From: a virus | DNA: 34,895 nucleotides | IMG/VR virus record: IMGVR_UViG_3300037339_000034 | Span: 1 to 34,895 of that record | Direction: 5' to 3' (one strand) | Part shown: positions 15,708 through 34,895 of the stretch, in pieces | Position numbering within the stretch: the stretch's first letter is position 1 | Layout of the letters: each line of letters begins with the position of its first letter | Notes under the pieces: generated by a model | Databases searched by the model: none | Told to the model about the DNA's origin: nothing | Seen by the model: only the letters and a program-made list of their open reading frames with translations | Position numbers and translations under genes: made by a program

Positions 15708-16564
15708 TGCCCTGGGGCTCGAACTTCATCGCCGTCTCTGGCGGGGCGGGAGGCTCACTCGACGTGACCTTCAGCGTCAACCAGACGGACCTCAACCTGT
15801 TCACGTTCTTGGGTAGCCCGCCCTTGGCTTCCGTCGTGAATATGATCCTGGACGGCGCCGACATTCGCACATTCGATATCGGCTCGTGGCCGAACAGTTC
15901 GGTGATCAACATCACCGTGATCAACAGCGGTCGGATCTTGGGGCGCGGCGGTGTCGGTGGCGCTGGCGGCGGGTCGGTGCCGTACGGTCACGACGAGAAC
16001 GAGGGCCAGAACGGCGGGGCGGGAACGGCTGGCGGGCACGCCCTCTCGGCGCCCGTTGGCACGTTCATCATCAACCTCAACCTCGATGCCGGCTATTGCT
16101 GGGGCGGTGGCGGTGGCGGTGGCGGCGGTGGCGGCTCGTCCGGCTCGAACGGCGGCGGCAACTACGGCGGTGGTGGTGGCGGCGGCGGCGGAATGGGATG
16201 GGATGACGCGGCCGGCGGCCTTGGTGGTTACGCCACTCGTCGACCTGGCAACAATGGCTCGCAGGCTACGCAGGCCGGCGGGCCGGGTACAGGTGGCTTT
16301 TCCGGCCGACACATCGCTGCGGGCCACTCTGTGCCGGATGGTGATGGTTCGATCGGTGGTGACTGGGGCCTGGTCGGAACGGCCGGCATCGACTGCTGGC
16401 AGTTCAACGTCGCATTTCCGCTGCTCGACCAAACAGGCGGCGCGGCTGGAGGGCCCGGCAGCGCGATTCAAGCGGCAACCACGGTCATCAACTTTGTCGG
16501 CGCCCTCAACGAGGCGACGCTGATCGGCACCGGCCGCATCGTCGGAGCGAGTAACCACCTGTGA
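15707..16564 (+). CDS. glycine-rich tail-tip / adhesin-like protein
   Basis: A 285-residue protein. Residues 1-75 are beta-helix-like (VINITVINSGRIL) with the N.G.I.G turn pattern seen before polyglycine blocks of phage tail tips. Residues about 78-250 are Gly-rich, with runs of 10 or more Gly (at about 131-142 and 154-163). The C-terminus returns to beta-helix-like text (ATTVINFVGALNEATLIGTG). Polyglycine runs can form polyglycine II sandwiches, as in the adhesin gp38 of phage S16, where the loops bind receptor. By analogy this is a receptor-binding or fibre-tip protein. Three further Gly-rich genes occur downstream. Confidence 0.7.
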   Translation: MPWGSNFIAVSGGAGGSLDVTFSVNQTDLNLFTFLGSPPLASVVNMILDGADIRTFDIGSWPNSSVINITVINSGRILGRGGVGGAGGGSVPYGHDENEGQNGGAGTAGGHALSAPVGTFIINLNLDAGYCWGGGGGGGGGGGSSGSNGGGNYGGGGGGGGGMGWDDAAGGLGGYATRRPGNNGSQATQAGGPGTGGFSGRHIAAGHSVPDGDGSIGGDWGLVGTAGIDCWQFNVAFPLLDQTGGAAGGPGSAIQAATTVINFVGALNEATLIGTGRIVGASNHL

Positions 16565-19068
16565 GAATCATCGTCGATCTGCCAGTCGAGCCGGGGGTGT
16601 ACACCGAGCAGACGCCGCGCGGCGCGAAGTCGCAGTGGAAGGATGCCGACAAGGTGCGCTTCCGCTACGGGCTGCCCGAGAAGATCGGCGGCTGGACGCG
16701 GCTGGCGAACGTGTTCATCGGGCTGGCCAGGAAGATCTGGGACTGGACCTCGCTCGACTCGCGCAACTGGGTGGGCTTCGGCACCGAGGCCAAGCTGTAC
16801 CTTGTGCAGGATGAGGTGCAGACCGACATCACGCCGATGCGATCATTCGGCAACCTGACCAACCCGTTCACCACGCTCATCACGAATCCGATCGTCACGG
16901 TTGTGCACGTGAACCACGGGGCGCAGGCGAACGACTATGTCCGCTATGCCGGCGCAACTGCGGTGGGCGGCCTGACGATCAACGGGCAGTACAAGATCGT
17001 GACCGTGATCGACGGTGACAGCTACACCATCAACGCTGGAACGCCGGCCGGCGGATCGGCGACGGGTGGCGGCACCGTGGCCTACGAGTACGACATCACC
17101 GCTGGCGGCAGCAGCGCCGCATTCGGCCAGGGCTGGGGCGTGGGTCCGTGGGGCGAGAGCACCTGGAACACTCCGCGCGTGGCATCATCGCTGCTCGCCC
17201 CTCTGCGAACATGGTCGATGGACAACTGGGGCGAAGACCTCATGGCCAACCCAAGGGGCGGCTCGATCTACTGGTGGGACCGCACGACCGGCCCGAACGC
17301 CCGAGCCGCCTTGCTGGTCGGTGCGCCGATCCAGGCGACGCTCATCATCATCTCGCAGCGCGATCTGCATATGTTCGCGATGGGTTGCACTGACGCGATC
17401 CTGAACACCTTCGACCCCATGCTGATTCGCTGGTGCTCGCGCGAGAACTTCAACGATTGGATTCCTTCATCCTCGAACACGTCGGGCGACCTGCGCGTGT
17501 CGAGCGGATCGAAGATCGTTGCCGCGTGCAAAACCCGTGGCGAGCTGGTGCTGTGGACCGACAAGTCAGTTCACCAGATCACCTACATCGGCGGCCAATC
17601 GGTTTACGGGCTGACGCCGATGGGCGAGAACATCTCGATCCTGGGCCCCAACGCTTTCGTTGAGGTGGACTCGCGCGTGTTCTTCATGACCGAGACCGAC
17701 TTCTACGTGTACGACGGGGTGCCGCAGCCGATGCCCTGCATGGTGCGCGCGTACGTGTTCGACAACCTCAACGTGTTCCAGAAGGACAAGGTGTTCGGCG
17801 GGCTCAACAAGACCTTCAACGAGGTGTGGTTCTTCTACCCAGCGAAGGCCAACAATGTCTGGATCGAGACCGACTTCAGCGCTGGATTGAACCCGGCCCA
17901 GTACACCGTCCAAACGATGGCCGGCACACAGCGCTACTCGGTTGCGCTCAATGGCGCCGGCTACGTGTACCTGGCCAGCTACGACAACGCGGGCGGGGAG
18001 ACGGTAAACACTTACGAATCGATCTACATGCTGCGCAACGCCGCCATGCTGGCAACGCCGCTTGAGTCCGAATACGAGATGATGGTGGTGATCAGCGACA
18101 CGACAGCGTTCTTCGGCGTGGCGATGGATGTCATCGATCTGAACAGCGCAGCCGATACGCTTGACGACAACATCAAGGCGCTGCTGGTCACTGTTGATCT
18201 CGCCACCAGCTCGATGTACTTCACCAAGACCGATGCGCTTGGCGCCACCTCGACGCTGGCCAACGCGGCAGGATTCTACGACCTGGGGTTGCTGGCAACA
18301 CCGATCAGCCTCACGGTTGGCAACACCTACGCGATCACGATGACGCGCACCAACAATACCATTAAGGGGTATATCTACGACGAGGCCAGCGGGACCAACC
18401 AGCTGGTTGCAACAATTACGCTCAGCGCTGGCGAGATCGCGGCGTATCTCGGGACGGGTGTCGCGGGTGCGATCCTGCGCCCATCCAGCCAGTCGGCCGA
18501 CTTCAACGATACGCAGCTGCTGTCGTTCCGCGCTGCGCCGGCCGGCGTGCTCATCGCGCAGAGCGCGCCCGGGGCCGCCCGTGAAGTGAATCGTTACGTG
18601 GCCTTCAACTACCAGGAGCAGCACTGGACGATCGGCAACATGATCCGAACCGCGTGGCACGAGAAGAGCCCGGTGTACAGCAAGCCGTACGCGGCGGGCC
18701 CGGACAACTATCTGTATCAGCACGAGACTGGCTCCGATGACAACGGTTCCGCGCTGACGGCGTATGCCGAGACCTACGACATGGAGATCCCCGAGTCGGG
18801 CGAGAACCTGATGCACGTCGATCAGCTGATCCCCGATTTCCTCGATCTCGATGGGACGGTGAACATCAAGCTGAAGGGCAAGAAGTATCCGCAAGGCCAG
18901 GTGTATCAGGAGAAGGGCCCGTACCCGGTCACCGCCAGCACAGCGAAGATCTCGACGCGCATCCGTGGCCGGCAGATCGCGCTGCGCATAGAGTCCACCA
19001 CCACTGGCGCAGCGTGGCGCATGGGTACAATGCGCGCCAGGATTCAGCCGCACGGAAAGCGAGCTTAA
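16561..19068 (+). CDS. tail nozzle / tail hub protein (P22 gp10-like) with an inserted domain
   Basis: An 835-residue protein with a GTG start overlapping the upstream stop. It opens with VEPGVYTEQTPRGAKSQWKD, then VRFRYGLPEKIGGW, the classic start of the packaged-DNA stabilisation (gp10) family. Propeller-like segments follow (WGEDLMANPRGG, DLHMFAMG, ISILGPNAFVEVDSRVFFMT). Residues about 488-665 look like an insert with a separate beta-rich, lectin-like pattern (FFGVAMDVIDLNS, YAITMTRTNNTIKGYIYDE). From about 676 the family text resumes (VNRYVAFNYQEQHWTIGN) and ends with RIRGRQIALRIES and WRMGTMRARIQPHGKR. The protein forms the lower tail tube that retains the packaged DNA. Confidence 0.85.
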   Translation: MRIIVDLPVEPGVYTEQTPRGAKSQWKDADKVRFRYGLPEKIGGWTRLANVFIGLARKIWDWTSLDSRNWVGFGTEAKLYLVQDEVQTDITPMRSFGNLTNPFTTLITNPIVTVVHVNHGAQANDYVRYAGATAVGGLTINGQYKIVTVIDGDSYTINAGTPAGGSATGGGTVAYEYDITAGGSSAAFGQGWGVGPWGESTWNTPRVASSLLAPLRTWSMDNWGEDLMANPRGGSIYWWDRTTGPNARAALLVGAPIQATLIIISQRDLHMFAMGCTDAILNTFDPMLIRWCSRENFNDWIPSSSNTSGDLRVSSGSKIVAACKTRGELVLWTDKSVHQITYIGGQSVYGLTPMGENISILGPNAFVEVDSRVFFMTETDFYVYDGVPQPMPCMVRAYVFDNLNVFQKDKVFGGLNKTFNEVWFFYPAKANNVWIETDFSAGLNPAQYTVQTMAGTQRYSVALNGAGYVYLASYDNAGGETVNTYESIYMLRNAAMLATPLESEYEMMVVISDTTAFFGVAMDVIDLNSAADTLDDNIKALLVTVDLATSSMYFTKTDALGATSTLANAAGFYDLGLLATPISLTVGNTYAITMTRTNNTIKGYIYDEASGTNQLVATITLSAGEIAAYLGTGVAGAILRPSSQSADFNDTQLLSFRAAPAGVLIAQSAPGAAREVNRYVAFNYQEQHWTIGNMIRTAWHEKSPVYSKPYAAGPDNYLYQHETGSDDNGSALTAYAETYDMEIPESGENLMHVDQLIPDFLDLDGTVNIKLKGKKYPQGQVYQEKGPYPVTASTAKISTRIRGRQIALRIESTTTGAAWRMGTMRARIQPHGKRA

Positions 19069-24554: not shown

Positions 24555-24559
24555 CCTTG

Positions 24560-25120
24560 ATGAAGAAGAGCGAGAGCCAGACGATCACCATCAGGAAGGC
24601 GAAAGCCTACGATGTCAGCAACCTCTGCCGACTACTGGAGCAGGCGTACTCTGATGCCGAGGGCATGTATCCCGAACCTGATCAATACATGGTCATCAAC
24701 TGGGTGACAGGGATCATCAGTGAGGGGTACTGTGTCGTTGCGGAGAAGGCGGGCCGGATCATCGGCTCGGTAGCGGTCACTAACTACAGGTTCCCCTGGA
24801 GCCCCAAGTGGTTCATCTACGTCGACTGGATGTACGTGAGCGTCGGGTTCCGAGAGGGCGGAGTGTTTGATGGATTGCTGACGGCGATCCATGCGTATGC
24901 AGATGAGCGCCAGGCCCCGATCTTCGGTGGCATATCGTCAGGGAAGGCGGCGGTGCTCAAGGATCGATTGATGCAGATGAAGGGTTACCACTATCTCGGT
25001 GGTCAGTTCATGAGGGGCACGGAGGTCCAGGATGAGCGGCGGGAGCAAGAAGACGACGCAGAAGTACGCACCAGCAGCGTACATCGAGCAGGGCGCGCAA
25101 CAGTCGGCGGCGCTGGCTAA
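24560..25120 (+). CDS. GNAT-family N-acetyltransferase
   Basis: A 186-residue protein. Residues about 5-150 follow the GNAT fold: ITIRKAKAYDVSNLCRLLEQA (strand 1 and helix 1), then CVVAEKAGRIIGSVAVTNYR (strands 2-4), IYVDWMYVSVGFREGG (strand 4 and the acetyl-CoA pyrophosphate loop, usually Q/RxxGxG/A; here FREGGV), the helix LLTAIHAYADE, and KGYHYLGGQFMRG at the end. The acetyl-CoA loop is non-canonical, so activity is uncertain. GNAT genes recur in phage structural operons, where substrate is usually unknown. It may modify a virion protein or a host target. Its last 89 nt overlap the next gene in another frame, and residues after about 155 have no GNAT-like pattern. Confidence 0.8.
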   Translation: MKKSESQTITIRKAKAYDVSNLCRLLEQAYSDAEGMYPEPDQYMVINWVTGIISEGYCVVAEKAGRIIGSVAVTNYRFPWSPKWFIYVDWMYVSVGFREGGVFDGLLTAIHAYADERQAPIFGGISSGKAAVLKDRLMQMKGYHYLGGQFMRGTEVQDERREQEDDAEVRTSSVHRAGRATVGGAG

Positions 25121-26120
25121 AGAGTACGCGGCGAAGCCGTGGCAATCCTACGACCGCGCCCGCGTTGCAGACCTGTCCGAGAACGAACAGGCGGGTATTA
25201 GCCTCGCCAAAAATTCGACGGGCGCCTGGCAGGGAGATCTGACCAAAGCGCGGGGCGCGCTCGATACCGCGAGCGGCACATTCAACAACGCCGACATCCA
25301 GTCGTACATGAACCCGTACATCAAGGGCGCGCTCGATCCGGCCGCCCGTGAGATGCGGCTTCAGGGTGCGCAGCGGAATGCCGAGCTGACCGGCCAACAA
25401 GCCAGCTCAGGGGCGCTGTCCGGTTCGAGGGCGGTCCTGGCCCAGCGCGAGCAGGACAGGGCCACGGACCAAGGGCTCGCGGACCTGTATGGTCAGGGGT
25501 ACGCAGCGGCATTCGATAAGGGCTCTGCGTTGTGGTCAGCCGACCAGGACCGACAAATCTCGGTCGCCAATGGATTCATGCAGGCGGCGGGCATGGGCCA
25601 GGAGTTCATCAATCAGGACTACAAGCGACTGATGGACTCAGGCGAAGCGGTGCGGGCCGTCGATCAGCTGAAGAAAGACTTCGACTATTCGCAATTCATC
25701 GAGAAGCGCGACTGGGGCGGGCGACAGGCGTTGTACCTCGCCGATACGCTTCGCACCCTGAAGGGTTCGTTCAGCGAGACGACCACCTCGAAGACGAAGG
25801 AGAAGGGCGATCTGGCCGGGCAAGTCATTGGCGCGGTTGCGACCGTTGCCGGCGCTTACTTCACGGGCGGGGCATCGCTGGCGGCCTCTGATCGTAGACT
25901 GAAGACCAGCGTCGTGCGGATCGGTCACCTGAAGACGAACGGCCTGCCGGTGTACACGTACGTGATCAACGGCTTCAAGTCGATGGGCTGCATGGCCGAT
26001 GAGGTCGAGAAGCAGTTCCCCGAGGCAGTGGGCGTGAACAGCATGGGCACGCAGATGGTTGACTACCACCTCATCGACTTCACTCCCGAGAACTTGGTCT
26101 TCGAGAAGGAGGCCGCATAA
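25032..26120 (+). CDS. virion protein with C-terminal S74 intramolecular chaperone
   Basis: A 362-residue protein. The N-terminal 240 residues are helical and resemble phage internal or tail-tip proteins with a YmNPYi..al.......r.......q....GAl.GSR....q.e.......l..l...Gy..A pattern (MNPYIKGALDPAAREM, SSGALSGSRAVLAQREQDR, LYGQGYAAAFDKG). A hydrophobic Gly/Ala stretch follows at about 262-285. The C-terminal 77 residues start at S286 with SDRRLK and continue VYTYVINGF, GCMADEVEKQFPEAV: the endosialidase-type S74 chaperone, which trimerises and then cleaves itself off just before the Ser. The ATG at 25032 follows a GGAGG (25020-25024). Overlap with the acetyltransferase gene is 89 nt. Confidence 0.8.
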   Translation: MSGGSKKTTQKYAPAAYIEQGAQQSAALAKEYAAKPWQSYDRARVADLSENEQAGISLAKNSTGAWQGDLTKARGALDTASGTFNNADIQSYMNPYIKGALDPAAREMRLQGAQRNAELTGQQASSGALSGSRAVLAQREQDRATDQGLADLYGQGYAAAFDKGSALWSADQDRQISVANGFMQAAGMGQEFINQDYKRLMDSGEAVRAVDQLKKDFDYSQFIEKRDWGGRQALYLADTLRTLKGSFSETTTSKTKEKGDLAGQVIGAVATVAGAYFTGGASLAASDRRLKTSVVRIGHLKTNGLPVYTYVINGFKSMGCMADEVEKQFPEAVGVNSMGTQMVDYHLIDFTPENLVFEKEAA

Positions 26121-27319
26121 TGCCAGATCCACGCTCGGGACTGTCCGCGCTCAATCGTCCGGCACCGGAAGAAGAGCAACCCCGGCCCGCGCTCGTAGCG
26201 CCGCCGCCCAAGGGTGTGCCCAGCTCGTCACCGTACGTGATGGCCCCGGGCGCGAATAATCCAGCGGCAGCGCCAGCACCAGCAGGCCCCCCAGTTCAAC
26301 CGTCAGCGTTGTCGCCCGCAATGTCTGCGCCTCCGCCCGTGCAAGGTGGGGCAGCACCTGCGCCGCAGGCCGGTCAGCCAGCGCTCGCGCCCGAGGGTGA
26401 CGCTCAGCCAGATCCAGCGCAGGCGCGGAAGATCGCGCAGGATACGGCGCGGCAGTCTGCCGAGGCAGTAAAGACTGCGCCGCCAGAGGCCAAAGCGGAA
26501 GTCGGCAAGCAGCTCGAAGAGATTGGCGGCGGGCCCCAGTCGCTCGCCGATGCGTACTTGCAGACCCTGGAGAAGCTGGGTGGCGAGAAGGAGCTGGACC
26601 TGAAGCTGACGAAGGAGGACTGGGGTCTATTCCTGATGGACTTCGGGATGCGCATGATGGCGGCGTCAGGCGACTGGCGCGGCACCGCGCTCAGCCATGC
26701 AGGCGAGGCGGGCTCGGGTACGCTTGGCGCCATCCAAGCTGATCAGGCCAGCCGCACCAAGAGCACCGATGAGTACAACGCCAACCAGCGCAAGTCCGCG
26801 TTGGATATTGCGACCAAGCAGTATGAGATCGACAATCCCACGCCTTCCTCTTCGACCGGGCGTTACGTTCAGACCGAGAAGGGGTTACTCGACCCCAGGA
26901 CCGGCAAGTACATACTGGATGAGAACGGCGAGCGGATCATGAAGGCTCCCACGGGTGGCGGTAACAAGGAGCTGGAGCGCGAGTATCGCTACAAGTCGTT
27001 GGTGCAATCCGGCATGGAGGACTGGATGGCGCGGCGTATGTCGACCAGCGATGCGCCCTCCCCGGAGTCGATTCGCTTCGAGATGATCCAGGCGCTGGAG
27101 CGCCGCGCCGCGCAGGACCCGTACGCGAAGGTCACCTCGCCAATCGACGGCAAGCAGTACAAGATCGGCGACCTGCCCGAGGCAGCGAAACGCGCGTACC
27201 TGGAGAACAACATCCGGTTGGTGTGGCAGAAGAATCAGGAAGCTGCGGTCAAGCCCGGGGCTGGCGCGCTGGACGATGCGACCAGGGCGGCAACCAAGGA
27301 TGTTCCCGGCCTCCAGTAA
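26120..27319 (+). CDS. putative internal virion / DNA-ejection protein
   Basis: A 399-residue protein. The first 100 residues are extremely Pro/Ala-rich and low in complexity (AAPAPAGPPVQPSALSPAMS). A helical, acidic region follows (about 100-160) and then DWGLFLMDFGMRMMAASGDWRGTALSHAG, a pattern seen in phage internal proteins encoded beside the ejected giant protein. Later text is polar (KELEREYRYKSLVQSG, YKIGDLPEAAKRAYLE). Its position between the S74 protein and the giant gene fits a short-tailed phage ejection module, but the precise role is inferred. The start is in TAATG overlap with the previous stop. Confidence 0.65.
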   Translation: MPDPRSGLSALNRPAPEEEQPRPALVAPPPKGVPSSSPYVMAPGANNPAAAPAPAGPPVQPSALSPAMSAPPPVQGGAAPAPQAGQPALAPEGDAQPDPAQARKIAQDTARQSAEAVKTAPPEAKAEVGKQLEEIGGGPQSLADAYLQTLEKLGGEKELDLKLTKEDWGLFLMDFGMRMMAASGDWRGTALSHAGEAGSGTLGAIQADQASRTKSTDEYNANQRKSALDIATKQYEIDNPTPSSSTGRYVQTEKGLLDPRTGKYILDENGERIMKAPTGGGNKELEREYRYKSLVQSGMEDWMARRMSTSDAPSPESIRFEMIQALERRAAQDPYAKVTSPIDGKQYKIGDLPEAAKRAYLENNIRLVWQKNQEAAVKPGAGALDDATRAATKDVPGLQ

Positions 27320-27363: not shown

Positions 27364-30300
27364 ATGGCGGTCAAGGATGACCTGCGGACTGAGCTGGAAC
27401 AGGCTCAGCGCAATCTCGAAGCGGCGACTCGGCAAGGCGATTTCAATCAAGAGGATCACTTCGCCAGCCAGGTGAAGCAGCTGGGCGATGAGCTGAGCGC
27501 CTATGATCGGCAGAATCCGCGCGCTCCAGTGGACACACCGCCCTCCACGGGTCCGGCGCTCGCACAGCAAGCCCCCGTCAGTCGCGAGGACTTCAAGCAG
27601 CAGGTCGGCGCGCTTTCAGCCTATACCCCGGACGAGTACCCGGCGCCAGGCGGCCCGGGCCAGGGCGCGCTCAGCATCGAGCAGGATACGCCCCAAGGCG
27701 TACAGCCAGACGAATGGTGGGCTGGGTCCGAAGAGGGCGTCAGGAAAGCCAGCGGCGCGCTCGACAGCTACGTCGACAACCGAGGCGTGACCTCCAGTGA
27801 TGTCGCCAAAACGGCGGCGGCGGCCATCATCAAGCAGGGCGCGCAGGCGCTGTTCGAGCGCGCGAGGGATGCGCAGTCGCAGCAGTATGCGTGGCTTCAG
27901 GAACAGATCTCATTCGAGCCCGACAAGAGCGACAAGGTCGCGCACGCCAAGTGGCAGGCCGCGATTGATCGGCAGACCGCGACGCTGCAAGCCGGCGGCG
28001 AAATCGACCCCACGTTCTGGGGCACGTTCGTGCGCCCGTTCCTTGCGCCAACGGGCAAGACCTCGTTCGGCCAGAAACTGGAGAACCTGTCTGAGCGCGT
28101 GAACAGATCGCGATCGGAAGAGGCGAAGACGGCCGAGAAGAAGCAGTGGCTCCCCACCGCTGAGATGTTCAACAAGAACTTCAACGCGGGCGACCCGAGC
28201 ACATGGTTCGAGGGCACGGCAATGCCGTGGGAAGATCTCGATGCGTTCTCGTTGCACTTCGCGGCGCAGGCGCCCAGCTTCAGCGGCGGCTTCATCGCCA
28301 ACCGCGCGGCGGGTCGCGCATCGGCGGCAGTCGCTGGAGCCATCAAGCGGGCTGAGGGAATCCTCAACCCGAACATGGTCAAGCGCTACGCGGACAAAGT
28401 GCAGACGGTGGTCGGTACGGTCGCGGGTGTGGCCACCGACTACATGCTCACGAAGGAGCAGCTTGAGACGCAGATTCAGGAGGCGATCAAGCCACATTGG
28501 GATGACGAGCCAAAGTGGGACGCCGACCCGGACTTCACGAAGCTGGTCAATGCCGGCGTGCCGAGAGAGACCGCCAAACAGTTGCGCGCCAACGAGGCTG
28601 CGGTAACCGGCGCAACGGCGGCGGCGTTCGTCTCCGCAATGGGCGAGGCCCCGCTGCAAAAGTTCTTCGCGAAGATCGGTATCGGTGAGGCTGTCTCGCG
28701 CGCAGGCACCGCAGCGAAGGCGGGCGTGGGCGGCGCGCTCACCAACGCGGCTCAGGAAGCGAACGAACAACTCCAGACGAACTGGCAAGAGCGTCAGTTC
28801 GATCCATCCACGCCGATGACCAAGGACGTGATGAACTCGCTGGTCGGCGGCATGATGATCGGCGCCCCGGTGGCGACTGTCGGCGGCGCGCTGGCTGGCG
28901 GCACACCGCACAACGCATCGCTCAACAAGGACCAGAAGCGACTGCTGGAGAGCGGCTTCAAGCTCTGGACGGATACCGCCAACAAGCGGTCTGCCGTGCA
29001 AGCGAAGGTGTACGACCCTGAGTACATCAAGAACACCGAGCCCGAGCAGCGGCTGAAGGATTACGCCGAGATCGAGGCGCTGCAAGAGGCTGAATCAAAA
29101 GCGTTCCTCAAGTCCGAGCCCGTCATTCGGAAGATGCAGGAGAAGTACGGCGCAACTCCGCAGTCGAAGACTCGCGTCGATAAGTTCGCGACGCAGCACG
29201 GGCAGCGCATCGCCAAGATCGAGGCCAATCGTCAGGCGCGCTGGCACGGCGAGAACATCAAACAGACTGAAGATCAGGTAGCCCAAGAGGCAGCCGACGT
29301 TCAGCGCCAGATCGAGGAGAACGCGAACAAGCTCGGTGAGTTCACGCAGACCCGAGACGACCTGACTATGGTTCAGGAAGGCGGCGTGATCGAGGAAGAG
29401 GGCGGCCTCGCCGCGATGGATCGGTACGATCGTCTGATCGATCAGGGCTACGGTCGCTGGACCAGCAACAAGAAGACTAAGTTCGTGCTGACGCCGGCCG
29501 GTCGCATGGCGCGCGACTCGATCGACGCTGCGATCAATGCGCAGCAGAAGACAGTCGACGTGAAATACGCCGGCCCTGAACGCCGACAAGAAACGCTCAG
29601 CCGCCTCAGCGACGAGAAGTGGAGCGCGATGTCGGCGACAGAGCAGCAAGCCTGGTACAAGGAGTCGCGCACTGACGACTTGACTGGGGTGCAAAACGTC
29701 AAAGCGCTCAAGGATTACAACACCTGGGTGGAAGAGGGCAGGGTGCCGCCGGCCGCCGCAGTCGGCTTCATCGATAGCGACTCGCTCGGGTGGGTCAACA
29801 AGAACATGGGCGACAAAGCGGGCGACGAGTTCCTGGCCAAAATCGGCAAGGCGTTCAAGACTGCCGGTCTCGCCGATGTGACGTTCCGCAAAGGCGGCGA
29901 CGAGTTCGTCGTGCACGGCGACACGCAGGAAGAGGTTGATGCGGCGATCCGCGTGGCACAGCAAACCCTGGCGGGGATGGACCCTGTCACGGACGAGACC
30001 GGGCGCAGCGTTCAGCCGGAAATCACGTGGGGCACTGGCGATACGCAGGACATGGCCGATGCCGCGATGCGCTCCGCAAAAGTGGCCAAGGTTGCTGAGG
30101 GGCGGCGCTCGAAGACGGGCCAGCCGCCAACCTCGCTAAGGCAGGCCCGCCCGGGCGACCTGCCCATCATGTCGTATGACGGATCAGGCGAGCCCACCGA
30201 GACGAACGCGATCATCGATGAGATGCAGCGGATCGCTGACGCCACCGACGAGTTTTCGGTGCGGCGGTTTGAAAAGTTGAGCGATCAGCTCGACCGGCTG

Positions 30301-33300
30301 GTCACGATGGAGGGTGAGCGAACCGACATCATGCGTTTCGCGCAGGGGTTGCTCAAGGCGATGAACCTGTCGAAGAGCGGGTTGTCGCACGCGAAGATCG
30401 TGGCCGAGGCGAAGGTCAAGTGGATGGCCATGAGCGTGGAGCAGAAGGCGTTCTACGAAAAGCGGGCTGCCGAGTTTTTCACGCCGTTCTTCGGTGAGTA
30501 CGTCGGCGGCGTTGATGCCTACATCTCCGAACAGCACAGCCTGGACGGCGACCCGGACTTCGACTCGAAGATGCCGTCGTTCACTCATGACGAGAACGGC
30601 AATCGCGCGTATGGCGAAAACACCGCAGCCTTCACGTCGCTGAAGCGGTTGATCGACGAGAAGCGGCTGCCGCCGAATGTGATCCGCGATCTCGACGACA
30701 CGAGCACATGGTGGCGCGGGCTGGGTCACGAAGACATCACGCCGGTCGACGTGTTGATGACGCGGGTGCACCGATGGATCGGCGTCGAGATGATGGCTGG
30801 CGGGCCGTCGCCATTCTCGGATCAGCTCGAAGAGTACAAGCGTGTCGCGGCTGAGTTCGACGATGCGGCGTATCCGCTGTTGCAGCTGTACGGCGATCCG
30901 CTCGCCGGCAACAACTTCTACACGCCGTTGCAGAAGGGCAGCCGCGTCGAGATCATCTCCGAGGGGCGCAGCGTTGCCGGCGTCGTGATCAAGGCCGACA
31001 ACGATTCGGTGGTCGTGAAGTGGGACGAGGACATGAAGGTCTTCGACCCGGACGTGGAGAAGAAGGGCGACACCGCGCGCTTCTCGCGCAGGTTCGGCTG
31101 GCAGATCTCGGCGCGTCACGCGCGTGGCGGCAAGTCGTATGGTCGACAGTTCGGCTCCTGGCCCGGCCAGGCGCGGATGGGGCGTCGCTGGAACCCCGAT
31201 CAGGAAGCGTGGGAGACGGCGGCGGATGTCGCCAGGCGCAGTGATCGAGCGAGGGTCGTGAACGCCAGCAGGAACGTGCTGCGCGGATTGGCGGAGAACG
31301 CCAAGGTCAAGGCCACCCGCAACGAGATGCGCCGGGCCCGGGCTTCAGCCAACGAGATGATGGCCGGCATGGGCAACCTGCCGCAGATCACGCTGGCGAA
31401 CTCGGTGGCTGACCTGCCGCCACACATGCAGGCGAAGCTGGTCGCGCACGGCTCGAACGGCGCTGGCGTGCAGGGCATGTTCGATGAGGACGACCCGAGG
31501 AACGGCGTCTGGGTGCTGATCGGCAACAGCGTCGTGGCGGCGAAGAAGCGCGGCATCACCCTCGAACGCCAGATCGCGGAAGCGGTCATCCACGAGACGG
31601 TCGGCCACTACGGCCTGCGTGGCTGGATGGGCAACGACAAGACCATGAACCAGTTCATGGACGCGATCGAGGCGGCGTTCCCCAAGGAGGTCCGCGCGAA
31701 GGGGCGCGACTATGGCTTCATGGTTCGCAGGGGCGCCTGGCGCGCTCAACCCCTGGCGGAGTCGCCCGGCGCGATCCTGATGTCCGCCGAAGCAGATGCG
31801 ATCCGCTTGATGATCAACGAGCGCAACGCGAGGACCTTCGTGACCGGCGACGGCAGCAGGGTCGTCAGTGATCGCCCGCGCCCGGATGATCGCTGGATTG
31901 AGACAGCGAAAGTTTATGACGGCATTCGTGCGCTGCTGAAGGACTCGATGAACTCGACTACCGGCGGGTACGGGACATTCCCGCCCGGGCGCGGCGAGAT
32001 CACGCAGGAAGAGCTGGCCAAACACATTGGCATGAAGAAGCAGCGGCTTGCCGCGATCCTGACGACCGGCGCGGGGCGCGCGTCCGAGAACGAAATACTT
32101 TCGATTCTCGATGGCATTGAGTCGCTTAGCAGTGGCGGCGGCCCAATCCGAACCGAGCTGAAGGCCGCTACGGAAAAGGTCAAGACGGACCTGTCTGGAT
32201 ACGCCGCATCGCTGGGCAGGCTGACGTTCGAGCAGGTGCTTGATGAGGCCAACAAGGCGATCAAGGCGCAACTTGGGGAGGGTGCGCTTCCCATCAAGGC
32301 GCGGACCCTTCGCTGGTGGGGGGCCTCTGGGCTGTTGCCGAAGATCGGCACGCGCGGGCGATTGTCGACGTATCCGAAAGACCATGTGGATCGGATCGTC
32401 CGCATCAAGACTTTGCAGGAGCAGGGCCTGACGATCGAGCGAATCGGCAGGGAGATGAAAAAAGCCGAGAGCGATCAGGTCTCCGCGCAGACGAGGAGAG
32501 ATGTGCGTGGATTCGTTGATCAGATGTTGGGTGCCGGGGTCAGCGCCAGGGCGATTGCGAACGCGCTGAAGGTGCGGATCACCGAGGTTAAGGGCGGCGT
32601 CAATCTGACAGTCGGCGTAGATCAAGCCGACGCTCTCATGCGATTGGCTGAGCGTAATGCCGAGGATGTCAAGGTCGGCCTGCCCGCGCCGCCGCCGTTC
32701 ATGAAGACGCCCGGGTCGCACTGGGAAACATCGAGTAGCGGCGAGGGTGACCTGTACATCGCGCGCATCGGGCCGAACGCTGGCGCCCCCAGCCGTACGC
32801 GCACGGGCCCGAACGACATCGCGATCAAGTTCGATAAGGAGAAGCTGCTCCCCGACTATATGTTCTACGTGTTGCAGTACCTGCAACCGAAGATGGCTGC
32901 GCGGCTGCGCGGCACGGCGCAACAGTCGATCAACCAGAAAGACATCGACACCGTTCTGCGCGAGCACTTCCAGGCGCCGACATCTCAGCTGAGGGGTGGT
33001 CTGCAAGAGCCTGGATCGACAGACGGGATGGAGTGGATGTCGGACGCGCATCGCCGCCTGGCCGCCGAGGAGTACCTGGCCGAGATGGCGCAGCTGATCG
33101 TGACGGACTACGGCGGCAAAATGCCGAAGCCGCAGCTCAATATGTTTCAGCGCATCGCGAATCACATCCGCAACTGGATGGTGCGCAAGGGCTACGGGCG
33201 CTTCATGCGCGGTCCGATGAAGTTCACCGACAACGACATCGCGATGATCATCTGGAACGCGCAGAACTTCGTGAGGAACGAGAAGGGCTGGGCCTACCAG

Positions 33301-34895
33301 GGTGCGAGCGGCAAGGTGCTGACCCCGTTCATGCGGGACAAGAACCTTTTCAGGTCGTCAATCCTGACGGTGATGGAGAGGGGCGCGCGCCCAACCACCA
33401 AGCAGGAGCGCCAGCAAATGGTGGCGGCCGGCAATGCGCCGACCACTACGGTGGCGCTGTTCCCCGAGTTCGGCACGCGGGCGCAGTACAGCGAGATCTT
33501 CGAGAAGCTGGTGAAGGACGGCAAGATCAAGCGAGCCGAACTTGAGGCCCTGGGCTTGGCCAGCGCGCTGAACAACATGAAGAAGTGGGGCGACGTTATC
33601 GGCCTGGCCCAGATGGCAGACACCGAAGGTCGAGACCCATACATGGTTGGGGCCGACGCGCTGCCGCCGCAAATTCGCAAAGCGTACATGAAGGCGCACG
33701 TGATCTCGCGCGAGAACCGGAACCAGATGTACGAGGACCTGCATCTCGCCAGGGAGCGGTTGGCAAAGTACGAGGAAGAAGAGCGCCAGCAGGACCTGCC
33801 GTATGTGCCGCTGCCGGGCGAGGGCTTTGTGCTTCCCGAGTTGTTGGCCGCGTTCAGAGGGGAAGGAGAGCAGGGGCCCCGGACCTCCCAACAAGAGCAG
33901 GTTACTCGCGCGGCAGACATCGCGGCGACGAAGGAGATCATCGCGTTCCTGGAGAAGGAGGGAACCATCCCCACAGCGGAGCAGCAGATCGCTGCGCGTG
34001 ATGAGATCAACAGCATTCTCGAACTGCCAATAGGCCCGAAGGACAAGATCCCCATAGGCATACTGGAGATGATCGCGGCGGCAGCGGCCGTCAAAGTTCG
34101 CGTTATGCCGGACAACCCGTACCGCAACTCCGGTCGCGACGCGATGACGATCGATGGCTCGGTCAACGTCGACATCACCCCGGAGAACTGGCGGAGCCTG
34201 CGTCCAGAGACGCCCGAGTATTACTACAACTACCGGCCCGTGGGGCGCTCGAACGAAGACGCCTATGGCGCGTACGTGTTCTTCCAGGACAACCCGCACT
34301 TCGCGGGTCAGGTGACCCACAATCGATTCAGACCGCCCGGTGGTTACCGTGGCTCGTTCATGCACTTCCGCTATGCGGAGTCGCAGCTCACCAACGGCGA
34401 ACCCGCTTACGAGGTCATCGAGGTTCAGTCCGACCCGTTCCAGGGAACCGAGCACATGGCCCGCAGTCAGCAGGAATGGAACGCGACGAAGAAGTCTGCC
34501 GAGTCTCTACGTGCGCGCCTCGACCGAGTTGGTTTCACCATGATGGAGCGCACGTCGAAGGCGCTCGAAACGCGGATGGAAGCGGCACACATGGGTGTGC
34601 TTGATGCGTGGAACGATACCGAGGGCAGGACGCAGGCAGAGATCATCACCAATCGCGGCCACCTGATCGTTGAGTGGGAGAAGGAGCGAACGCAGATCTA
34701 CGAGACCGCGATTGAGCGCATCGAACTATGGCGCGAGAACAATACTCGCCCGGTCCTCCGCGACCTGAACAACATCACGAGCGAAGACGCGCGGGCGTTC
34801 AAGCTGCTCGACAACAAGGCCATGGATGAGGTCGCCGTTCAGGTGAAAGCCTGGCTGGAGTGGATGCGCGACGCCACGAACTTCAACCCGGGCGG
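27364..34895 (+). CDS. giant polyvalent virion protein with GGDEF, zincin-like, MerR-like and specificity-subunit-like regions (3' end outside window)
   Basis: More than 2510 codons, open to the window edge; start ATG 27364 after AGGGG at 27353-27357. Seen: Gln/Ala-rich helical N-terminus; Gly/Ala hydrophobic stretches about 290-515 (AAQEANEQLQ at 462-471). Residues about 768-915 form a GGDEF domain: DDLTG 771-775, D804, N812, D821, GGDEF 844-848, ADAAMRSAK 898-906. The I-site position reads GLAD, so the RxxD Arg is absent. HETVGH 1410-1415 is zincin-like. Residues 1640-1700 look like a MerR helix-turn-helix (TLRWWGASGLLPK, TYPKDHVDRI). About 1793-1870 resembles an HsdS repeat (GDLYIARIG, GTAQQSINQKDID). 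AAEEYLAE is at 1900. EVIEVQSD at 2350-2357 is a polyvalent-protein motif. Proteins of this kind are packaged and ejected ahead of the genome; that role is inferred from architecture and position. Confidence 0.85.
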   Translation, partial: MAVKDDLRTELEQAQRNLEAATRQGDFNQEDHFASQVKQLGDELSAYDRQNPRAPVDTPPSTGPALAQQAPVSREDFKQQVGALSAYTPDEYPAPGGPGQGALSIEQDTPQGVQPDEWWAGSEEGVRKASGALDSYVDNRGVTSSDVAKTAAAAIIKQGAQALFERARDAQSQQYAWLQEQISFEPDKSDKVAHAKWQAAIDRQTATLQAGGEIDPTFWGTFVRPFLAPTGKTSFGQKLENLSERVNRSRSEEAKTAEKKQWLPTAEMFNKNFNAGDPSTWFEGTAMPWEDLDAFSLHFAAQAPSFSGGFIANRAAGRASAAVAGAIKRAEGILNPNMVKRYADKVQTVVGTVAGVATDYMLTKEQLETQIQEAIKPHWDDEPKWDADPDFTKLVNAGVPRETAKQLRANEAAVTGATAAAFVSAMGEAPLQKFFAKIGIGEAVSRAGTAAKAGVGGALTNAAQEANEQLQTNWQERQFDPSTPMTKDVMNSLVGGMMIGAPVATVGGALAGGTPHNASLNKDQKRLLESGFKLWTDTANKRSAVQAKVYDPEYIKNTEPEQRLKDYAEIEALQEAESKAFLKSEPVIRKMQEKYGATPQSKTRVDKFATQHGQRIAKIEANRQARWHGENIKQTEDQVAQEAADVQRQIEENANKLGEFTQTRDDLTMVQEGGVIEEEGGLAAMDRYDRLIDQGYGRWTSNKKTKFVLTPAGRMARDSIDAAINAQQKTVDVKYAGPERRQETLSRLSDEKWSAMSATEQQAWYKESRTDDLTGVQNVKALKDYNTWVEEGRVPPAAAVGFIDSDSLGWVNKNMGDKAGDEFLAKIGKAFKTAGLADVTFRKGGDEFVVHGDTQEEVDAAIRVAQQTLAGMDPVTDETGRSVQPEITWGTGDTQDMADAAMRSAKVAKVAEGRRSKTGQPPTSLRQARPGDLPIMSYDGSGEPTETNAIIDEMQRIADATDEFSVRRFEKLSDQLDRLVTMEGERTDIMRFAQGLLKAMNLSKSGLSHAKIVAEAKVKWMAMSVEQKAFYEKRAAEFFTPFFGEYVGGVDAYISEQHSLDGDPDFDSKMPSFTHDENGNRAYGENTAAFTSLKRLIDEKRLPPNVIRDLDDTSTWWRGLGHEDITPVDVLMTRVHRWIGVEMMAGGPSPFSDQLEEYKRVAAEFDDAAYPLLQLYGDPLAGNNFYTPLQKGSRVEIISEGRSVAGVVIKADNDSVVVKWDEDMKVFDPDVEKKGDTARFSRRFGWQISARHARGGKSYGRQFGSWPGQARMGRRWNPDQEAWETAADVARRSDRARVVNASRNVLRGLAENAKVKATRNEMRRARASANEMMAGMGNLPQITLANSVADLPPHMQAKLVAHGSNGAGVQGMFDEDDPRNGVWVLIGNSVVAAKKRGITLERQIAEAVIHETVGHYGLRGWMGNDKTMNQFMDAIEAAFPKEVRAKGRDYGFMVRRGAWRAQPLAESPGAILMSAEADAIRLMINERNARTFVTGDGSRVVSDRPRPDDRWIETAKVYDGIRALLKDSMNSTTGGYGTFPPGRGEITQEELAKHIGMKKQRLAAILTTGAGRASENEILSILDGIESLSSGGGPIRTELKAATEKVKTDLSGYAASLGRLTFEQVLDEANKAIKAQLGEGALPIKARTLRWWGASGLLPKIGTRGRLSTYPKDHVDRIVRIKTLQEQGLTIERIGREMKKAESDQVSAQTRRDVRGFVDQMLGAGVSARAIANALKVRITEVKGGVNLTVGVDQADALMRLAERNAEDVKVGLPAPPPFMKTPGSHWETSSSGEGDLYIARIGPNAGAPSRTRTGPNDIAIKFDKEKLLPDYMFYVLQYLQPKMAARLRGTAQQSINQKDIDTVLREHFQAPTSQLRGGLQEPGSTDGMEWMSDAHRRLAAEEYLAEMAQLIVTDYGGKMPKPQLNMFQRIANHIRNWMVRKGYGRFMRGPMKFTDNDIAMIIWNAQNFVRNEKGWAYQGASGKVLTPFMRDKNLFRSSILTVMERGARPTTKQERQQMVAAGNAPTTTVALFPEFGTRAQYSEIFEKLVKDGKIKRAELEALGLASALNNMKKWGDVIGLAQMADTEGRDPYMVGADALPPQIRKAYMKAHVISRENRNQMYEDLHLARERLAKYEEEERQQDLPYVPLPGEGFVLPELLAAFRGEGEQGPRTSQQEQVTRAADIAATKEIIAFLEKEGTIPTAEQQIAARDEINSILELPIGPKDKIPIGILEMIAAAAAVKVRVMPDNPYRNSGRDAMTIDGSVNVDITPENWRSLRPETPEYYYNYRPVGRSNEDAYGAYVFFQDNPHFAGQVTHNRFRPPGGYRGSFMHFRYAESQLTNGEPAYEVIEVQSDPFQGTEHMARSQQEWNATKKSAESLRARLDRVGFTMMERTSKALETRMEAAHMGVLDAWNDTEGRTQAEIITNRGHLIVEWEKERTQIYETAIERIELWRENNTRPVLRDLNNITSEDARAFKLLDNKAMDEVAVQVKAWLEWMRDATNFNPG

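Follow-up and report, generated by a model that had tools for sequence, protein, structure and literature searches.

A GGDEF domain of a phage-only clade in a giant, probably virion-packaged protein of an uncultivated phage

Enzymes by which phages degrade or sequester cyclic nucleotides are known, and a cyclase delivered by the phage particle itself has so far only been predicted. GGDEF domains in virion-type polyvalent proteins were described by Iyer et al. (2017), who proposed interference with nucleotide signals as their role and gave as an example WP_004096050.1 from an Acetonema longum prophage (PMC5512222). The initial annotation of the DNA considered here, which took a GGDEF domain in a virion protein not to be a characterised infection mechanism, therefore overstated the novelty, since such proteins and the same role had been published in 2017 (PMC5512222). 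Experiments on the GGDEF domains of giant proteins were not found in the literature searched.

The window, by which is meant the whole stretch of DNA analysed (a fragment from IMG/VR, 34,895 bases long), ends with a reading frame of 2510 codons that is open at the contig end; the 3′ end of this giant gene is missing from the contig. As in the proteins of Iyer et al., the GGDEF domain is part of a giant multi-domain phage protein that would be packaged and injected and would act in cyclic-nucleotide signalling. The example from 2017 comes, however, from a Firmicutes prophage and combines SWI2/SNF2, methylase, zincin and ART domains, whereas the giant of the window is podovirus-like and has a MerR-type helix-turn-helix. 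It should also be noted that such domains were called "not very widespread" in 2017, whereas at least 75 non-redundant viral reading frames of at least 900 amino acids with this domain were found here.

The DarB-like proteins JC1 gp69 and Bcep22 gp75 resemble the window's giant in that a giant gene, preceded by those for a head-closure protein and an acetyltransferase, closes a podovirus virion operon (PMC9144972). Both carry LPD38, which is also present in the closest homologue of the window's giant, L178. They differ in having methylase/helicase and lytic transglycosylase domains and no GGDEF domain listed; moreover, JC1 gp69 was seen in virions by mass spectrometry, whereas the giant of the window is known from sequence alone (PMC9144972). 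The diguanylate cyclase-like proteins of the YuA gp44 type and of Vojvodinavirus (phrog_5594), a sister group of the giants' domains, have in common with the window domain the DSL-x-W-N motif, a compact build and the absence of the I-site Arg. They are, however, stand-alone proteins of about 150 amino acids encoded outside the virion operon and with Lys at the position of PleD K332, whereas the window domain is embedded in a protein of 2510 amino acids or more. A YuA-type gene is present in Bordetella phage LK3, whose lysogens form hyperbiofilms, with no mechanism shown (PMC8471281). With PleD, WspR, SiaD and DgcR the window domain shares the fold and the metal- and base-binding residues, but it is without the I-site Arg, K332 and D336, and no adjacent sensory input domain was recognised. 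The mCpol of Panoptes (OptS) also has a palm fold of related type and makes cyclic dinucleotides in the conflict between phage and host; it is, however, a bacterial defence enzyme nearly without a GGDEF motif, whereas the window encodes a phage protein with the canonical motif.

The initial annotation had placed the domain at 29665-30108, equal to residues 768-915 of the reading frame 27364-34893 (+), which is correct, and the profile search that it had proposed shows the GGDEF domain to be genuine: over residues 770-895 the score of PF00990 is 43.4 bits, the cut-off being 23.8 (E 4e-11 with the 2510-residue protein, 4e-12 for the region alone). A six-frame search of the contig finds the GGDEF match with E 4.8e-14, and chance is excluded as the source of the profile match. 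The nearest NCBIfam models are the diguanylate cyclases DgcN/YfiN and SiaD. Structure prediction with AlphaFold2, which had likewise been proposed and for which an alignment of 45 GGDEF domains was the input, gives a GGDEF fold (mean pLDDT 91.5, pTM 0.83). Its best matches in the PDB are SiaD, WspR, DgcR, PleD and DgcB (Foldseek E about 3e-10 to 1e-9), to which the VIA-align Z scores are 14-16 (top 15.8, with 163 residues at 4.7 Å), and every top PDB match listed is either a diguanylate cyclase or a GGDEF/EAL protein. In predicted viral proteins, the best structural match is part of the 1143-residue entry A0A516M277_1, followed by the cyclase-like protein of Bordetella phage CN1.

An alignment that includes PleD puts all residues named in the initial annotation where it had located them. 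DDLTG occupies residues 771-775 and ADAAMRSAK residues 898-906; D804, N812, D821 and D846 are equivalent to PleD D327, N335, D344 and E370, and R842-K843 precede GGDEF (844-848). The active signature is accepted as [G/A/S]G[D/E]E[F/Y] (PMC6456294), and this signature is present together with the two metal acidics D804 and D846. The reported loss of the RxxD inhibitory site (I-site), which reads GLAD at 835-838, and of the Lys of the FK pair (PleD K332 is Gly809) is borne out as well; the initial annotation did not list that PleD D336 is Lys813. The description of the domain as "intact" holds for the metal acidics and the guanine-binding residues, which are kept, but not for the near-invariant K332 and D336, which have become G809 and K813. 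Without K332 the domain stands outside the canonical diguanylate cyclases and is filed here only as a GGDEF domain that possibly works in a similar way.

Conservation was read in two sets of viral domains, in each only at the positions left free by its search pattern (DxDx[FL]Kx[IV]ND for the first set, [YF][HR]x[SG]GDEF for the second). Conservation at D327, D329, K332, N335 and D336 in the first set was accordingly discarded as evidence, these residues being fixed by the pattern. The counts for the main catalytic positions are given in Table 1. At the D336 position the second set has Asp in 59 of 70 members and Lys in 3, and at the K332 position Lys is found in all 44 rows of the alignment of bacterial and YuA-type domains. 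Ten columns are invariant in 42 of 42 rows, the window included (D804, D806, N812, G820, G845, D846, E847, K906, G913 and R915), of which the C-terminal K906, G913 and R915 had not been singled out in the initial annotation. In most phage members the signature is SGDEF, and the residue at PleD R366 is His. Since the catalytic residues are kept in both sets of viral giant proteins, which were seeded independently, the constraint on these positions points to an enzyme and against a dead fold. The G809/K813 state of the window recurs in L300 (SLGWVNK), and G809 also in L292 and L317 (SLGWVND), with the metal and GDEF sites intact there; judged from these sequences, G809 is a minority state among phage members and not a unique accident. 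Diverged variants, in which GGDEF or SGDEF is kept and K332, D336 or G343 is changed, were seen in L298, L335, L303 (with His at K332), L320, L321 and L332, and are possibly sub-clades with altered chemistry.

Table 1. Coordinates of features in the window, with the observations on which each assignment is based
Feature	Position	Strand	Basis
Head/tail stabilisation protein, start of conserved block	16561..19068	+	phrog_3287 virion structural protein; podovirus homologues
GNAT-like gene, same operon	24557..25120	+	matches CRP-902 gp35, annotated GNAT acetyltransferase
Two genes upstream of the giant (362 aa and 399 aa)	25032..27319	+	both match L190 neighbours
Giant polyvalent-type protein	27364..34893	+	ORF list; at least 2510 aa; collinear with the L178 giant
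Conserved N-terminal region, residues 217-760, upstream of GGDEF	28012..29643	+	aligns with the L178 and L190 giants
GGDEF domain, residues 770-895 (Pfam); model to about residue 915	29671..30048	+	PF00990, AlphaFold2, PDB Z about 15
D804 codon, first metal-binding Asp (PleD D327)	29773..29775	+	Asp 70/70, set unselected here
G809 codon, position of PleD phosphate-binding K332	29788..29790	+	phage members: K 57/70, G 5, A 3
N812 codon, base-binding Asn (PleD N335)	29797..29799	+	Asn 70/70
D821 codon, guanine-binding Asp (PleD D344)	29824..29826	+	D 63/70, N 6
GGDEF signature, residues 844-848	29893..29907	+	GDE 41/41, set unselected on the motif
HETVGH motif, residues 1410-1415, zincin-like metallopeptidase candidate	31591..31608	+	columns kept in seven giants
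MerR-type helix-turn-helix, residues 1644-1699	32293..32460	+	PF13411 36.1 bits, cut-off 21.6, E 7e-9

The initial annotation had missed that the window domain, as judged from trees and searches, belongs to a large clade of GGDEF domains found only in phages. The closest annotated phage proteins are those of the stand-alone YuA gp44 type (31-34% identity). A search with an alignment retrieved 80 viral loci, about 50 of them with the domain in reading frames of roughly 1000-4400 amino acids, and a second, independent seed from the GDEF side yielded 70 non-redundant domains. Combined, these are 84 non-redundant proteins of at least 600 amino acids, the window included, at least 75 of which have at least 900; PF00990 is matched by all 42 members of the main alignment. 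In the tree, the giants together with the YuA type are separated from 21 bacterial cyclases with support 100/100, although these 21 rows were gathered by pattern searches and wider sampling could shift the limits of the clade. The giants alone are supported by 98/92, and the window domain lies inside them (98/86), with L182 and L178 as its nearest neighbours. Its branch measures 6.29 changes per column in the first tree and 1.3 in the later one. In the first tree, of 85 rows, the window domain had stood on this very long branch at no supported place, which was resolved once relatives from giant proteins were added.

Neither the giant protein as a single query nor the GGDEF region alone found close relatives in the viral or genome collections, and the matches listed from 50,697 deposited phage records include no giant GGDEF protein. 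The family signature was absent from all 398 Pseudomonadota genomes, and therefore no prophage hosts were found. Plasmid matches were set aside as ordinary plasmid-borne cyclases, and so were the GGDEF domains in the "Bacteriophage sp." fecal scaffolds L010-L013, which resemble ordinary cyclases of the bacterial type and lie on unannotated scaffolds. A YuA-like phage fragment (L098, 6235-6687) was met in a Microbacteriaceae metagenome-assembled genome, into which it had been binned. Beyond the earlier description, the present analysis defines the phage-only clade, shows how frequent it is in uncultivated phages, measures the constraint on its active site and notes an association with inorganic pyrophosphatase (InPase) domains. 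The clade supplies many natural homologues, and the conservation of their catalytic site argues for real enzymes.

The position of the giant gene in a late virion operon, which accords with the virion protein of the initial annotation, is corroborated by a gene order collinear with that of podoviruses and of L190. Terminase, portal and head/tail proteins are encoded ahead of the giant gene, and the stabilisation protein, the GNAT-like gene and the 362-residue gene occur, where present, in the same order in Roseobacter phage CRP-902, Pelagibacter phage HTVC027P and phage DSL-LC04, the 362-residue gene having its counterparts at the same place in all three. The final large gene at the place of the giant is annotated "putative structural protein" in HTVC027P and "DNA transfer protein" in DSL-LC04. 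On the viral contig L190 the gene order of the window is kept, with a GGDEF giant at the end. Within the stabilisation protein, about 245 residues (432-675; 17854-18585, +) are inserted relative to the homologues from CRP-902, HTVC027P, DSL-LC04 and 023Pt_psg01. The C-terminus of the 362-residue protein (25032-26120, +) is an endosialidase-type chaperone domain (Peptidase_S74, PF13884), a tail missing from the homologues in kin phages.

The late virion operon, together with the fact that the closest homologue, L178, is a polyvalent protein recognised by Pfam (LPD38, a domain named for such proteins, at residues 3117-3305), makes it likely that the giant of the window is packaged in the virion and ejected. 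For example, gp69 of the Burkholderia podovirus JC1, a 4515-residue LPD38 protein that ends a similar operon, is represented by 51 unique peptides in purified virions (PMC9144972), and the class of polyvalent proteins as a whole has been inferred to be packaged (PMC5512222). Other members of the family carry InPase, PBECR5, RadC or GNAT domains, and the giant of the window likewise has several unrelated domains recognised by Pfam, GGDEF and MerR. An LPD or zincin domain of Pfam was not seen in the 2510 residues at hand, from which the C-terminus is cut off, but the motif HETVGH is present. Among 50 records of kin phages found through the stabilisation protein, none has a GGDEF domain, and the domain is therefore dispensable in the wider group.

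Cyclases release pyrophosphate, and the link between InPase and GGDEF domains in the giants therefore fits an active enzyme. InPase is present in 15 of the 84 GGDEF proteins as compared with none of 30 kin giants that lack GGDEF (Fisher p 0.010), the control set being small and fragmentary and the 15 InPase proteins partly interrelated. In 14 of the 15 it lies within 300 residues of the GGDEF domain, on either side. This adjacency has p below 5e-5 against uniform placement and p 0.025 after an exchange of positions between proteins, whereas a variant of the test that counts impossible overlaps as adjacent gives no signal. The association is no more than suggestive; InPase could remove the pyrophosphate, a role that Iyer et al. 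discussed for it in general (PMC5512222). InPase was not seen in the giant of the window.

The presence and fold of the domain, the conservation of its catalytic residues, its clade and the place of the gene in the operon are shown here; what we infer is packaging, ejection, catalysis by the Gly809 variant, its product and the benefit to the phage. In the reading that we prefer, with a probability of roughly one half, a giant polyvalent protein with a GGDEF cyclase of the phage clade would be packed in the particle and ejected along with the DNA. In the host cytoplasm the domain would then condense GTP at the start of infection, most likely to c-di-GMP, and without an I-site it should escape product inhibition of the usual kind; the resulting nucleotide may disturb the cyclic-nucleotide signalling of the host or its nucleotide-based defence. 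This reading predicts that synthesis of a cyclic dinucleotide takes place within the first minutes of infection and needs no expression of phage genes. Against it count the loss in the window of K332 and D336, which are near-invariant and lie in or beside the substrate site, and the fact that catalysis by canonical diguanylate cyclases needs a homodimer. The dispensability of the domain in the wider group and the weakness of the InPase adjacency in the stricter control count against it as well.

The same replacements (K332 by Gly, D336 by Lys), together with the long branch of the window domain, speak for a degenerate copy that binds GTP or c-di-GMP, makes no product and serves as sensor, sponge or allosteric switch for other domains, the enzymes being its Lys-bearing relatives. 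Degenerate GGDEF domains with regulatory roles are indeed well known in bacteria. One example has been described in PMC10333796. We nevertheless regard degeneracy as unlikely, since every other catalytic column is kept, Gly or Ala at the K332 position recurs in several giants that retain D327, N335 and GDEF, and no I-site is there to bind the product. It is quite improbable that the domain is active but reaches the cell by another route than the particle, being made late and acting inside the infected cell, a mode presumed also for the stand-alone cyclases of the YuA gp44 type. This would accord with the sister clade of YuA and Vojvodinavirus, where the gene is separate and outside the virion operon, and with the hyperbiofilm of LK3 lysogens (PMC8471281), but in the giants the domain is fused into a late-operon protein at the place where known virion proteins sit, an LPD38 protein was found in JC1 virions (PMC9144972), and the polyvalent class is inferred to be packaged (PMC5512222). 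A different product, 3′,3′-cGAMP or a linear nucleotide as made by Hypr GGDEF enzymes or the palms of Cas10 and mCpol, is highly improbable. The altered substrate pocket (G809, K813) and the fold common to GGDEF, Cas10 and mCpol (PMC12657218) would be compatible with it, but diguanylate cyclases and GGDEF/EAL proteins make up the top PDB matches listed, and at PleD D344, where Hypr enzymes have Ser (PMC6456294), the window domain has the Asp of canonical enzymes (D821), which is why c-di-GMP is favoured as the product.

Early delivery of a cyclase by the particle, the reading preferred above, can be extended to the clade as a whole, which we do only tentatively because the extension is rather doubtful. 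A widespread, phage-specific clade of cyclases that escape product inhibition would be carried by the virions of diverse uncultivated tailed phages and injected within giant proteins, in some cases next to a pyrophosphatase by which the by-product is cleared; the host would be flooded with a cyclic dinucleotide ahead of all phage gene expression, as a general counter to nucleotide-based immunity or signalling.

The giant of the window is collinear with L178 (3477 residues) over residues 217-927 (31% identity, E 1e-77) and again over residues 1306-1450 (44% identity), and the giant of L190 aligns with its N-terminal region from residue 277 on. The HE, H and G columns of the HETVGH block are invariant in an alignment of seven giant proteins. 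The model of this region is of low confidence (pLDDT 68.6), and its best, weak matches in the PDB are metal hydrolases of the YbeY type. In HETVGHYGLR, as the stretch reads in the window, the spacing is HExxGH rather than HExxH. The MerR-type helix-turn-helix, which is absent from the text of the 2017 paper on polyvalent proteins (PMC5512222), may be an added DNA-binding module. Residues 1779-1940 are 47% identical with residues 1399-1564 of the giant of L183 (E 4e-29), an unnamed module common to giants that otherwise differ.
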